Source of the DNA: an uncultured Haloferula sp.
Lineage (GTDB): Bacteria > Verrucomicrobiota > Verrucomicrobiae > Verrucomicrobiales > Akkermansiaceae
Length of the DNA stretch: 15,822 nucleotides
Reading direction: 5' to 3'
NCBI GenBank assembly: GCA_946885645.1
Contig: CAMPGU010000071.1
Location: 1 to 15,822, forward strand
A model generated the notes under the pieces. That model was not told the origin of the DNA and searched no databases. It worked only from the letters and a program-made list of their open reading frames with translations. The translations under genes and the position numbers were made by a program. Below, in pieces: positions 224 to 5,104 of the stretch. Position 1 is the first letter of the stretch. Every line of letters starts with the position of its first letter.

Positions 224-3200
224 CTAAGGCGTCACCAATTCCGGCTCCGGCCTCTTCTTGGGCTCCGGATCCTTGTCCTTGCGCGTTCCGAGCCAAGCCA
301 CCACGTCGCGCAGCTCGGCCGGCGTCAGGATACCACCCATCGGGGGCATGGCGGAGACGGGTGGCAGCATCGTCTCGATGTCGCTCTTCCTCACCCGCAG
401 GACTTTGCCGCTGCTATCCAAGTCCACGTGCTCCTTCGTGTCTTCGAGGATGATGCCTCCCACCGTCTTGCCCCCCTTGAGCGTGATGCTGGTGAGGCCG
501 AAGCCGGTCGCTATCTTGGCACCTGGATCAACGAGGGACTCCAGGAAATACTTCGCATCCCGGTGCTTGCCGATCGCCGAAAGATCCGGACCTGCATCGC
601 CCCCGCCGTGACCGCCACCCGCCGCATGGCAGCGCATACACTGCGCCGCCGGATGGGATTCGAAGAGCTCACCGCCCTTCTTCTCGCTCCCCCCTCGCAA
701 GGACCCGAGGTAAGGCGCAAGCGGATCCGCGGAGGCTTTGATTGCCGCCTGGTAATCCTCCAAGGCCCTTTTCACCTCCGGCTCCGGACGCGCCGCGCCC
801 GCGGCGAGCAATTCCAGCGCGGAAGGAGAAACACCGAGCTTCTCCTTCAGTCTGCCCAAGCCCTCCACGAAGAGCGCCGGGACTCCGGGAGCTTTGAGAT
901 TTGTGGCGAGCTTCCAGGCTTCCTGCTGGCGGCGGGCGCTCGAGTGAGCCACCGCGGCGCGGATACCGTCGAGCGCGGCCGCGGGTTGATCGGCCGCGAG
1001 GCGTTTGATCGCTCCGATGGCGAGTTCGTCGTTGCTCCCCTTCGCGAGATCGCCAAGCAGCTTGCCAAGGTCGGCGGGCTTGCTCGCGGCGTAGAGTTCC
1101 AGTGCTTCGGAGCGCGCGGCTCCCGGCAGGCCGCTGTTCATGACGAGGCCCCTCAGGGTCGCGTCGTCCACCGCGGAGAGATCCAGGTCATATTTCTGCA
1201 CCAGTGCCAACGCCGGCTCCGCGAGCTTCCCCTCCAGTTTCAAAAGGCTGCCGAGCACCGGCATCAGCACGTCCCGGACCTTCGCCGCATCCCGCTCTTC
1301 CAGCGGCGACCAGCGGCCCAAGGACTGATCGACGGGGTCCGGCTTGCTCCAGAGGCCGATCAGGCGCAATCCTTCCTCCCGGGCCATGGCAGGAGCTTCG
1401 GGATCCAGCACCACGTTCACCACGCGCTCGAGGTTCTTCTCGTCCCCCAGGCGGAAGGCGCTGTGCAGCAGGCGCCGCCAGTCCATCGTCGTGAGATAGT
1501 CAGGAGGCTCGTCGAGCAAGGCAGCGACCATCGGCCGGGCCTGCTCGATCCCCGCGTCGTGGATCGCCGCCAGCGCCTCGCGCGCCACCTTCGGATCCTC
1601 GTCCTCCAGGAACGCCGCGACGGCGGGATCCTTCATGCGCCGCAGGGCAATCACCCCTGCCAAACGCAGCGGCGCATCCTCCTCGTCGGCGAGCACCGAA
1701 ATCTGGCGCGGTTCGCATAGCAGCGACAGCGCATAGGAGCCGGCATGGCGCAGGTAGGGGTCCTCGTTCTCGCGCAGCATGTCCCAGAGGAAGGTGATGG
1801 CGTTGGGTTGCTTCATCCGGCCCGCCGCGATGGCGGTGAAGGCGCGCACCCGTGGCGACTCGTCCAGCAATAGCGACGCGAACTGGATGTTCGCGTCGGC
1901 CAGTCCCGACTCGCCCAGCGCTTTGATGGCCTGTGCGCGCACTTCCGCATCCGCATCCTCCAGCAATCCGACGAGCACGGTCCCCGCTCTCTGCCGGGTC
2001 TGCTTGGAAGGCAGCGTCACGAACTCGTCCGCGGAATCGGGAAGCACGGCGGCACCGCGCCGGGCGATGATGCCAAGGCCCCAGATGCCGTGAAGGCGCT
2101 CGAGGGTGGTTTTCCCTTCCTTCGCCACCCGGGAAAAGACCTCCATCGCTTCCGGTTTCCGGCTCAGCGCGAGTTGGGCACGCAGGCGTACCCGCATGTC
2201 CGGGTGTTTCATCAGTTTTTCCAGTCCCGGTGCCGGCCGCTTGCCGAAACCTTCCTCGATGATTTCCGCGGCGTACTCCGCATCCTCCTGGCGGAACATC
2301 TTGTCCGCCTCCAGCGAATAGACCCGGCCGTCCTCATGCGACTGCCAACCCGTGATAAAGTCGGTCACGTACAGCTTTCCATCCCACGAATATTCGACGT
2401 CCGTGACAGCGGCACCCCAGTTCATCTGGCGGGAGTCGCTCAGCTTCATTCCCGCACCGGAGGGTTCGACCTTGAAGGACCAGATCCCCGAATTCGCCGC
2501 CCCGCCGCGATAATCGCAGATCAGGAAACGCCCGGCCTCGCTCTCCAGAAAGCCTGTGCCGGGATGGTAGGTCAGGCCGGAGGGGCCGGCGGTGAGATTC
2601 GCCACGGGCGGCACGATGTAAGCGGGCTGATCCGCATTCAGGGGTGCCCACATGCGTTCCTCCATCCAGCGGTTCGGCGGATGCTCCTCCATCCCGATCT
2701 GCCGGTGGAAGCTGTGCAGCGCCTGGTGATCCATGGTCCAGCCGGAGTCCGCTCCTTCCATGATATAGACCACGCGCGCCTGGTCTCCCTGGTCGGAATT
2801 GTTATCCACGGAGATCGCGTTCCCGTATTCGTCGAAGGCGATCTCCTTCGGGTTCCGCAAGCCGGTGTGAACCACCTCGAAGTTCGAGCCGTCCGGATCG
2901 AAGCGGAAGACGCAGCCTTGGTCCGGGTATTCGTAGTGCTTTCCTTCCTTCGTGGTTAGGTTCATCCCGCGGTCGCCCAGCGTGCCGTAGATCCGGCCAT
3001 CGGGGCCCAGCGCGAAGCCGTTCAGATCGTGCCCCGAGAAGGACACCCGCACGCCGAAGCCGTCGAATAGCGCCTCGCGCTCGTCCGGCTTGTCCGCCTT
3101 GCCATCGCCGTCCTTGTCGCGCAGCGCCCAGATCTTCGGAATGCAGGCCAGATAGACCGTGCCTTCGTACTCGAAGACCCCCGCGGCCGGGCCGTCGAGA

Positions 3201-4141
3201 ACGTCATTGAAGCCGCGCGCGTAGATCTCGGTTTTCGCCGACTTTCCGTCTTCGCCCGGTTTTGAAAGCACCCGCACGACTTCGTCCACCTCGGTGAGGA
3301 ACTTCTTCGAGCTCTTCACCTCCTTGGTATACCACTTCTCGTGCAACTTCAGCCGGTCCGCGGTGGAACGCGAGGCGATGTCGTCGAGGTACCAGTAGAG
3401 GTGGTCCCGGTTATCCGGCACGCCGTGGCGGAAACGATGGGTCTCGGCGACGTAAATTTCGCCCTTCGGGCCGAAAGCCAGCGCGGTCGGGGAGGTGACG
3501 CCGCCGTTCTTGTAATCCGCCACGATGGTCGCCTTCGTTCCCTCCGGGATCGTCAGGCCGCCGATCGCGCTGCTGGCTATCAAGCCCGCCATATGAGGTT
3601 TCCCGCCTTTCGTGGAGGACGGGAATTTCTGGTTCGGATAATCCGTCATCAGGAAATGATCCGCCGCGATCACCCCCCAGCCGCCGCTCTCCTCGTCATA
3701 GAGGCGCAAACGGGCCCTCTTCCCCTTATGCTCGGAAACGTCCCACACCTGCGTGCGGAATTGCAGGCTGTTTTCGCCCGTCGCTTCGAGCACCGCCTTG
3801 CCGTCCACGAGGAGCTGCACGCCGGTTTTCCCCGGGTGCTTGCCGCCCGCGATGAGGAAGCAGATATAGTTCTCGGTGATTTTGAACTCCGGCGAGGTCA
3901 GGGAGCCCTTGGAAGCATCTCCTCCGTGGGCGGAGCAGGCCACGGATTCCTGGGCGTAGCCGGTGAGTTCGGCGGTGAGGCCGTCCATTTGCCCGCCGCT
4001 CGGAGCCAGACCGAAGGCCGCGCCCTCCACTTTCCAGTCCCCGTAGCCATCCCCTTCGAAAGCCTGGAGCACCTTCGTGGCTCCCAAGGTGGAGCCTGTA
4101 GCAAAAATCAGCCCGGAGGCGCACAGCAAACGCGTTCTCAT
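224..4141 (-). CDS. Secreted beta-propeller/HEAT/cytochrome c protein (Pirellula/Verrucomicrobium-type heme-binding)
   Basis: A 1305-residue exported protein of the large PVC-type family that joins a dehydrogenase-like beta-propeller to a heme domain; it probably oxidises a sugar or alcohol outside the cytoplasm and passes electrons to heme, but the substrate cannot be told. Residues 1-21 (MRTRLLCASGLIFATGSTLG) look like a signal peptide, which is why I start at the ATG at 4141 rather than at the longer open frame from 4249, whose extra 36 residues are Pro/Arg-rich and precede that signal. Residues about 22-175 form a beta-sandwich that recalls the extra domain of GH32 levanases (YGDWKVEG, AFGLAPSGG). 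A six-bladed propeller follows at about 195-615, with an acidic DKDGDGKAD loop near 342-350. HEAT-type helical repeats run from about 635 to beyond 1000. A cytochrome c domain ends the protein: CMRCH at 1168-1172 (bases 626-640), and the Met of SAMPPM near 1265 is the likely axial ligand. The gene stands alone, followed by a probable terminator. Confidence 0.9.
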   Translation of the reverse strand: MRTRLLCASGLIFATGSTLGATKVLQAFEGDGYGDWKVEGAAFGLAPSGGQMDGLTAELTGYAQESVACSAHGGDASKGSLTSPEFKITENYICFLIAGGKHPGKTGVQLLVDGKAVLEATGENSLQFRTQVWDVSEHKGKRARLRLYDEESGGWGVIAADHFLMTDYPNQKFPSSTKGGKPHMAGLIASSAIGGLTIPEGTKATIVADYKNGGVTSPTALAFGPKGEIYVAETHRFRHGVPDNRDHLYWYLDDIASRSTADRLKLHEKWYTKEVKSSKKFLTEVDEVVRVLSKPGEDGKSAKTEIYARGFNDVLDGPAAGVFEYEGTVYLACIPKIWALRDKDGDGKADKPDEREALFDGFGVRVSFSGHDLNGFALGPDGRIYGTLGDRGMNLTTKEGKHYEYPDQGCVFRFDPDGSNFEVVHTGLRNPKEIAFDEYGNAISVDNNSDQGDQARVVYIMEGADSGWTMDHQALHSFHRQIGMEEHPPNRWMEERMWAPLNADQPAYIVPPVANLTAGPSGLTYHPGTGFLESEAGRFLICDYRGGAANSGIWSFKVEPSGAGMKLSDSRQMNWGAAVTDVEYSWDGKLYVTDFITGWQSHEDGRVYSLEADKMFRQEDAEYAAEIIEEGFGKRPAPGLEKLMKHPDMRVRLRAQLALSRKPEAMEVFSRVAKEGKTTLERLHGIWGLGIIARRGAAVLPDSADEFVTLPSKQTRQRAGTVLVGLLEDADAEVRAQAIKALGESGLADANIQFASLLLDESPRVRAFTAIAAGRMKQPNAITFLWDMLRENEDPYLRHAGSYALSLLCEPRQISVLADEEDAPLRLAGVIALRRMKDPAVAAFLEDEDPKVAREALAAIHDAGIEQARPMVAALLDEPPDYLTTMDWRRLLHSAFRLGDEKNLERVVNVVLDPEAPAMAREEGLRLIGLWSKPDPVDQSLGRWSPLEERDAAKVRDVLMPVLGSLLKLEGKLAEPALALVQKYDLDLSAVDDATLRGLVMNSGLPGAARSEALELYAASKPADLGKLLGDLAKGSNDELAIGAIKRLAADQPAAALDGIRAAVAHSSARRQQEAWKLATNLKAPGVPALFVEGLGRLKEKLGVSPSALELLAAGAARPEPEVKRALEDYQAAIKASADPLAPYLGSLRGGSEKKGGELFESHPAAQCMRCHAAGGGHGGGDAGPDLSAIGKHRDAKYFLESLVDPGAKIATGFGLTSITLKGGKTVGGIILEDTKEHVDLDSSGKVLRVRKSDIETMLPPVSAMPPMGGILTPAELRDVVAWLGTRKDKDPEPKKRPEPELVTP

Positions 4142-4341
4142 CGGCGGGAACGCTAGCCACGGGCACGGGCTTGGCAATGATCCATGGGTACGGGAGTCGG
4201 CCGGATGTGACATGCGGCCGGGACGGCGGCCACCGGCCGGATCTTTCACCCCTAAAGGGACATCCCGATTCTTTCCCTGTCTCGCAGCCCCTCACCCCTT
4301 CTTAAAGAGTAAGGTCGGCCGCTTCGCCTTAGTGCGGAAAT

Positions 4342-4683
4342 TGTGAACAACTTGGGTACAGTCTTGAGAACTTCTGCCGACTGAAGAGCAAGCCTCGTAC
4401 CCAGATGCATTTTGCGACTTCAAATCGGGAAACTGCTGATCCGTGCCAAGCCTCTCTTTTTTTGCCTTGTTCACGGGCACTTTCCAAGTCCGGAACTTGG
4501 AATTCTACGATATGCCACTGTGAATCAATAGATTGAAAAGTTACGAATCCGTTTCACACCATCTGTCCACAAGTTATTCACATGTGGAGAACCCGATCCG
4601 GGGAACACTGCCGAAGGCCGTGGAATACCCTTCGTATAGCCGATTGCACTCCCTCGGGATACAGTCCCCGCTATTGTGAATAA
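4342..4683. other. Cluster of DnaA boxes; candidate replication origin
   Basis: This gene-free stretch contains two perfect matches to TTATNCACA: ttattcaca at 4574-4582 (+) and its reverse complement tgtgaataa at 4675-4683. Near matches with one mismatch lie at 4342-4350 (tgtgaacaa), 4519-4527 (tgtgaatca) and 4583-4591 (tgtggagaa, directly abutting the perfect box). Two-mismatch matches are at 4467-4475 and 4563-4571. The T-rich tract cctctcttttttt (4451-4463) fits 11 of 13 positions of the E. coli 13-mer GATCTNTTNTTTT, counting the two free positions as fits. The stretch is visibly richer in A+T than the genes on either side. No dnaA, dnaN, gidA or parAB gene is in the window, and gene direction does not switch cleanly here. 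It may be oriC, or another DnaA-binding site that titrates or regulates DnaA. Confidence 0.5.
4482..4502. repeat. 8-bp-arm perfect inverted repeat inside the DnaA-box region
   Basis: ttccaagt (4482-4489) and acttggaa (4495-4502) are exact reverse complements around the five-base loop ccgga. It lies between the T-rich tract and the central DnaA boxes. No T run follows on either strand, so it is not an obvious terminator. It could be an operator or a structural element of the candidate origin. Confidence 0.6.
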
Positions 4684-4710
4684 GCTGCCGATTTCCCCCC
4701 TGGCGAGGAC

Positions 4711-5046
4711 TCAGGCGCGTCGGGAAAGGCCGGCACCGGACCGCTCCGGGCTTCCGCCGGTAAGGAAACGCAGGATCCCGCCGACAAGTTTGGCCATCGC
4801 CACCACCACGGCCAGGACCATTCCCACCGTAAGCAGAAGCGCGACGGCGAGGATTCCTAGAAGCACCCACAAGGGCCACCAGCGCCGGTCCAGGCGGACC
4901 ACCTTCCCCCGCAGGGATTCCCATGACCTGCTTGCTTGGCCGCGCGAGCGGTCGTTACGAACCTCCGGCGGCGGGGGAGGTCCCCCGTCGATCTCCAGGA
5001 CTTCGGCTTCGATGGTATCCGGCACGGGCTTCAGTGTCGCCGACAC
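4711..5046 (-). CDS. Small single-pass or hairpin membrane protein, unknown function
   Basis: I do not recognise a named family. From the GTG at 5046 the product is 111 residues: an acidic stretch (TIEAEVLEIDGG), a proline run (PPPPPE), a basic segment (LRGKVVRLDRRWW), then a long hydrophobic stretch (WPLWVLLGILAVALLLTVG and onward to about ILRFL), and a polar C-terminus. This is the pattern of an inner-membrane protein with a charged cytoplasmic head. The start is uncertain: an ATG at 5166 would extend it but overlaps the SanA-like gene by 62 bases, and another GTG at 5025 is possible; none has a good ribosome binding site. It follows the SanA-like gene by 58 bases on the same strand, so it may be the last gene of that operon. 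Coding status is supported by the coherent membrane segment and placement only. Confidence 0.55.
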   Translation of the reverse strand: MSATLKPVPDTIEAEVLEIDGGPPPPPEVRNDRSRGQASRSWESLRGKVVRLDRRWWPLWVLLGILAVALLLTVGMVLAVVVAMAKLVGGILRFLTGGSPERSGAGLSRRA

Positions 5047-5104
5047 GCCGCGCGAGGCAATTTGAAGTTTCGCCCGAAGTTGGAACCGGATTCCGGCGGC
5101 GGTT

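Follow-up and report, generated by a model that had tools for sequence, protein, structure and literature searches.

The window (i.e., the whole stretch of DNA analyzed here; 15,822 nucleotides) carries an ordered array of predicted DnaA-type boxes, designated A, B, C, and D, within a 569-base noncoding gap. On balance, this array is probably an extra-origin DnaA-binding locus that would control the initiator rather than start replication, a reading based on sequence comparisons. The window is from the family Akkermansiaceae and is Haloferula/Luteolibacter-like; the best match of its diacylglycerol kinase is the enzyme of Haloferula sp. BvORR071 (89%), with those of Luteolibacter and related genomes also near.

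Organization of the array

The gap (4142 to 4710) had been described as gene free and is 569 bases long if the dehydrogenase-like gene bordering it starts at ATG 4141; this start agrees with relatives, and the longest open reading frame (ORF) of the gene extends to 4249. On one side, the start of a gene for a PVC-type heme-binding protein (224 to 4141, minus strand) faces box A, and on the other, the 3' end of a gene for a small protein (4711 to 5085, minus strand) faces box D. We refer to these as the A-side and D-side neighbors.

Box A (4342 to 4350, minus strand) reads TTGTTCACA, with one mismatch to TTATNCACA; its family logo on the plus strand is tTGTGAATAACTTGgGaAaA. Box B (4467 to 4475, plus strand; TTGTTCACG) lies 107 bp upstream of box C. 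Box C (4574 to 4582, plus strand) is a perfect TTATTCACA box with the extended consensus CAAGTTATTCACA, and box D (4675 to 4683, minus strand), 101 bp from C, is a second perfect TTATTCACA box. Both perfect boxes had been noted in the preliminary description, and its three one-mismatch boxes were also recovered, namely, box A, a box at 4519 to 4527 (minus strand), and a box at 4583 to 4591 (minus strand; TTCTCCACA) that stands head-to-head with box C. The last of these is perfect in the relative G059 and is absent as a general feature in most relatives. Box C is preceded at a 2-bp gap by a weaker box; in the window, this is C' (4563 to 4571, plus strand; CTGTCCACA), arranged head-to-tail with C, and the pair reads CTGTCCACA-AG-TTATTCACA. 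Box B, an IHF-like site (4523 to 4535; described below), and the conserved spacing are additions to what was first listed. The 8-bp hairpin (4482 to 4489/4495 to 4502) and the T-rich tract (a T-run at 4457 to 4463) that had been placed among the boxes are present in the window; by eye, neither is conserved in an alignment of nine genomes, and we rejected both as functional parts.

We compiled 48 arrays (the window plus 47 genomes; see below) and removed seven near-duplicates (G191, G184, G185, G084, G078, G229, and G065), leaving 41. Logos of these 41 arrays gave tTGTGAATAACTTGgGaAaA for boxes A and D and caCAAGTTaTTCACAa for box C, where the nine box positions were set by the search pattern and the extensions were free. 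A B-type box was present in 24 of the 41 arrays (21 at 105 to 107 bp before C and 3 only at 98 bp) and was not found in the other 17.

The expectation that one perfect box should occur by chance about once per 33 kb proved too generous: in 11 relatives, we counted 9 to 41 perfect boxes per genome, i.e., approximately one per 124 to 522 kb, with no genome-wide enrichment over the pattern read backwards. Boxes with at most one mismatch numbered 6 in the whole window versus 2.58 expected, and 8 of 200 shuffles reached 6. Because this window-wide count is only mildly unusual, the case rests on clustering, with five of the six boxes crowded into 342 bases. The pattern TTRTNCACR, which was picked after the boxes of relatives had been seen, had 5 matches in the window versus 0.55 expected (0 of 200 shuffles reached 5), and 4 of the 5, box B among them, fell in the gap. 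The box cluster of the window is real and nonrandom.

The IHF-like site (4523 to 4535, plus strand; AATCAATAGATTG), 51 bp upstream of box C, overlaps the one-mismatch box at 4519 to 4527. A loose form of the IHF consensus is WATCAANNNNTTR, and the site matches it in full. This was the single match in the window (0.12 expected; 23 of 200 shuffles contained one). Against the stricter consensus TAAnnnnTTGATW, as printed in an excerpt of PMC8682772, the site has one mismatch. At the same position, 51 bp before C, the 41 arrays had a mean score of 6.29 of 9, versus a maximum of 4.88 over 300 shuffles. The element scored at least 7 of 9 in 19 arrays (shuffle maximum, 7) and below 7 of 9 in the other 22. 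Mean G+C content from C-80 to C-20 was 0.37 to 0.43, and little beyond the IHF-like element was conserved there. Genes of the HU/IHF family were found in all eight genomes searched, at two or three per genome.

Conservation of the layout in the family

In nine genomes including the window, boxes A (minus strand), C (plus strand), and D (minus strand) kept their order and orientation, with A-C distances of 228 to 234 bp and C-D distances of 87 to 111 bp; box B was present in eight of the nine. An A-C-D search pattern built from these nine design genomes matched 47 of 260 family genomes at one place each, and the pattern read backwards matched none of the 260. Eight of the 47 matches were in the design set, and the 39 new ones came from the other 252 genomes. 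A C-D pattern matched 48 of the 260 genomes, again at one place each and with no control match. It added 12 new genomes and brought the total to 59 of 260. At the one of these 12 new places that we inspected (G003), the D-side neighbor was as in the window. In a sample of the phylum, the A-C-D pattern matched 10 of 387 genomes, i.e., nine family genomes already counted plus G382 (L249).

A lack of these boxes in close relatives had been named as a refutation; they are conserved in many (47 of 260 by the strict pattern) and were not found in all (e.g., not in G008 and G010). Neither pattern matched in 201 of the 260 family genomes, many of which are fragmented, and no match occurred in any small genome of the blocks G012 to G055 and G126 to G160, which we presume to be Akkermansia proper. 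The pattern-negative genome G008 has two boxes next to a D-side neighbor of the window's type.

The median pairwise identity of the arrays, boxes included, was 0.645; shuffled pairs averaged 0.607. The array sequence has diverged almost to random while the box layout has been kept.

Spacing of boxes C and D

Over the 48 arrays, C-D distances were 87 to 94 bp (12 arrays), 98 to 102 bp (13 arrays), or 107 to 112 bp (23 arrays). These three groups, near 88, 99, and 110 bp, are separated by roughly one helical turn. For a phase test, arrays at least 75% identical were collapsed to a single representative, which left 41. These gave a best period of 11.0 bp (R, 0.60). When distances were drawn uniformly from the permitted range, 1 of 1000 draws reached this R, a figure that overstates the certainty because grouping at 75% removes relatedness only partly. 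With a threshold of 65% identity or lower, all arrays fell into one group, so no phase test could be made at that level. At the 12 further places, the C-D distances were 88, 100, 87, 102, 81, 110, 89, 82, 100, 100, 100, and 101 bp. Altogether, 46 of 60 distances fell within 2 bp of 88.5, 99.5, 110.5, or 77.5 bp (13 of the 36 lengths counted qualify), modes that were named after the data had been seen, and 14 of 60 were more than 2 bp off the three modes, including 81 and 82 bp. Some pairs of most-similar arrays differed by approximately two turns (109/87 and 111/89 bp), and others differed by 9 or 12 bp (90/99 and 112/100 bp). A-C distances peaked at 230 to 234 bp with a second group at 219 to 222 bp; their best period was 13.3 bp (R, 0.68; R at 11 bp, 0.55), and they thus do not confirm the 11-bp phase.

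That the boxes are a chance cluster without function would agree with the mildly high count of boxes with at most one mismatch in the window (8 of 200 shuffles). Given the conservation in relatives, where the layout is kept in 47 of 260 genomes with no control match and the C-D distances are grouped, we regard this explanation as extremely improbable.

Position relative to the replication origin

The preliminary description put the array forward as a candidate oriC, to be checked by GC skew. We ran the check in five relatives (G058, G059, G063, G078, and G084), sampled as 20-kb stretches (one, 10 kb); each of these genomes has a single contig whose length is close to the listed genome size. 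The origin of the two-arm skew fit was 1930 (G058), 2764 (G059), 1227 (G063), 2245 (G078), and 1318 kb (G084) from the array. When the origin was forced to the array, the scores were far worse than those of the best fits in four genomes and less so in G084 (G058, -54.5 versus 367.2; G059, -136.7 versus 305.4; G063, 54.8 versus 231.6; G078, -39.4 versus 179.3; and G084, 232.1 versus 318.3), G084 being the weakest case. The directions of the rRNA and rpoB genes, searched in four of the five (G058, G059, G063, and G084), fit the skew origin. The dnaA gene was 750 to 2696 kb from the fitted origin.

Lying 1.2 to 2.8 Mb from the GC-skew origin in five of five, the array is thus not oriC in these single-contig relatives, and we rejected that role for it there. 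Expressed as a fraction of half a genome, its distance from the skew origin ranged between 0.45 and 0.91. An origin at the array, either in the window's own genome or as a second or conditional origin in the family, would be in keeping with the perfect boxes, the AT-rich stretch before C, the IHF-like site, the tandem boxes, and the presence of one copy where found, traits that the array has in common with bacterial oriC. Against this stand the single far-off skew origin that fits each of the five relatives and the gene directions in four of them, and we consider such an origin very unlikely. The narrower proposal of a second, conditional origin in part of the family, with condition-dependent firing that would leave the skew unmarked, is likewise very unlikely in our view.

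A candidate oriC beside the pyruvate dehydrogenase E2 gene

A different box locus fits the skew origin better than the array does in four of the five relatives. It lies downstream of a pyruvate dehydrogenase E2 gene, i.e., a 2-oxoacid dehydrogenase acyltransferase gene (best NCBIfam model, TIGR01349, just below the cutoff), which we located in 22 of 23 genomes. Downstream of this gene, a minus-strand box with no more than one mismatch occurs in 20 of the 22, and in 12 of the 22 a plus-strand box follows 144 to 146 bp further on; by eye, 19 of the 22 have in common an AT-rich block that precedes the first box. Examples with boxes and an AT-rich block are L221:12310-12464, L207:4713-4925, and L093:3975-4129. 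The locus was 65 (G058), 98 (G063), 96 (G078), and 176 kb (G084) from the fitted origin. The exception was G059, a misfit in which the locus (3.034 Mb) was 724 kb away. In G078, the sign of the skew switches between the 5-kb bins flanking 405 kb and the E2 boxes lie at approximately 406.5 kb, so that the local sign change coincides with the locus although the coarse fit is 96 kb off. This locus looks like oriC.

The sequences TTATCCACA, TTGTTCACA, and TTATTCACA of the array recur at this origin-like locus. This recurrence bears on the explanation that a protein other than DnaA (e.g., a chromosome-organizing protein or a CRP-like regulator) binds the array and that the boxes resemble DnaA boxes by convergence. 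TGTGA is a CRP half-site as well, and the extended consensus CAAGTTATTCACA(A) exceeds the 9 bp of a DnaA box, as such a protein would allow. The cores of the array, however, are DnaA boxes shared with the origin-like locus, and the DnaA of G059, the single DnaA that we aligned, retains domain IV, including its PRQ and GGRDH parts, in an alignment to chain 8btg_A, which we take to be the DnaA of Bacillus subtilis. The 2-bp gap of the head-to-tail boxes also matches the intervals of 2 to 3 bp reported, in an excerpt of PMC8682772, to favor head-to-tail cooperativity of DnaA. We therefore consider a non-DnaA binder improbable.

Boxes were also seen at other sites. A third box site lies in the znuA-maf gap of some relatives (L007:9113-9335, L005:9003-9224, and L004:7005-7205), and G003 and G059 have boxes near maf as well; the window's own short znuA-maf gap has no box with at most one mismatch. 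We rejected the idea that these boxes are the window's array shifted across maf and treat them as a separate site because G005 and G006 carry both. In G001, L087:3953-4249 contains two perfect and three one-mismatch boxes between two genes, presumably for a ribosomal protein L9-like protein and a DnaB-like helicase, judging from the protein starts. L085:3959-4242 (G008) has five perfect boxes in 284 bp, and G059:C1:4611826-4611905 has four in 80 bp.

Neighboring genes

The A-side neighbor of the window matched DUF7133, HEAT, and TIGR02603 over the cutoff and TIGR02604 under it. The D-side neighbor, a small protein with a hydrophobic C-terminal part (start provisionally at 5085; longest ORF to 5166), matched nothing in Pfam or NCBIfam. 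The A-side gene could be named in 25 of the 48 arrays, the other 23 being unnamed: a PVC heme protein in 8 (including the window), a dimeric NADP isocitrate dehydrogenase in 10 (e.g., L185 and L183), and a monomeric isocitrate dehydrogenase in 7 (e.g., L193 and L202), the last two being unrelated families. On the D side, we found a small protein of the window's type in 17 arrays (including the window), DUF6941 in 12, and a cyanophycin-synthetase-like protein in 6. The genes flanking the array on both sides thus differ between lineages while the array persists, which weakens a tie to any one neighbor gene.

The main alternative is that the array is a promoter region under DnaA or another regulator, serving the A-side gene and, where one starts there, the D-side gene. 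All 25 of the named A-side genes have their start toward box A, and the DUF6941 and cyanophycin-synthetase-like genes point away from box D. A promoter role is best supported by the occurrence of two unrelated isocitrate dehydrogenases at one place (17 of 48 arrays), since unrelated enzymes of equal activity at the same position suggest a link of the array to that activity. However, the neighbor gene is not constant across the family, the A-side gene of the window's clade is not an isocitrate dehydrogenase gene, and in the 17 arrays with the small protein, the D-side gene ends at the array instead of starting there. In G059, moreover, the monomeric isocitrate dehydrogenase gene (0.914 Mb) and the array (5.074 Mb) are approximately 2.3 Mb apart, and the 2.9 kb upstream of the dehydrogenase gene contain no box with one mismatch or fewer. 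In our assessment, a promoter role is fairly unlikely.

Proposed mechanism and comparison with known systems

We return to the reading of the array as an extra-origin locus that would control the initiator. A titration or regulatory role like that of datA or DARS had been offered as the alternative to oriC, and the single copy, the kept layout, the extra-origin position, and the IHF-like site fit it. In such a role, DnaA would bind the boxes of the array, and a protein of the IHF/HU family would bend the 107 bp between B and C. This bend would bring the DnaA bound at B, C'C, D, and A together on one face, and the resulting complex would alter the amount or the nucleotide state of free DnaA. 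It might inactivate DnaA in the manner of datA, reactivate it in the manner of DARS, or titrate it.

Of these models, datA is the nearest because the array has a single IHF-like site. According to an excerpt of PMC10950094, the minimal datA of Escherichia coli consists of one IHF-binding site (IBS) and four boxes. The array would resemble it, on sequence grounds, as a noncoding extra-origin cluster of DnaA boxes with one IHF-like site inside. It differs from datA in its neighbors, in its position far from the origin, and in having three strong box sites over approximately 340 bp with grouped C-D distances. Within E. coli, the positions of datA and DARS relative to oriC are kept (PMC4585315, in part), whereas the distance of the array varies as given above, a comparison of five different species with one. 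Because the position differs and any datA-like biochemistry of the array is a prediction from sequence, we do not file it as datA.

With DARS1 and DARS2, the array shares the character of an extra-origin DnaA-box locus. Excerpts of PMC8682772 and PMC4585315 state that DARS2 needs IHF and that DARS boxes I and II face each other, as do box C and the box at 4583 to 4591 in the window; this opposing box, in contrast, is not retained in most relatives of the window. The core of DARS has three boxes, and the window offers C', C, and the opposing one-mismatch box as possible counterparts. DARS2 also needs Fis, which is conserved among gammaproteobacteria related to E. coli (PMC8682772, in part). In B. 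subtilis, DnaA-box arrays are found away from oriC, and some act on transcription (PMC4447404, in part). The array is likewise a candidate DnaA-box array outside oriC; for the B. subtilis regions, the excerpts mention neither a spacing conserved across genera nor an IHF-like site. From bacterial oriC, it differs in lying off the skew origin in five relatives, in four of which the E2 locus fits better.

To our knowledge, the DnaA-resetting sites datA and DARS have been described mainly in E. coli and related bacteria. Among the open-access papers listed for Verrucomicrobia, Luteolibacter, or Akkermansia on oriC or DnaA boxes, no title or abstract opening described such a site. The analysis yields a candidate oriC for the family that adjoins the pyruvate dehydrogenase E2 gene rather than dnaA. 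In addition, an array of DnaA boxes with an IHF-like site and grouped spacing provides, in Verrucomicrobiota, a concrete candidate for a site of the datA/DARS type.
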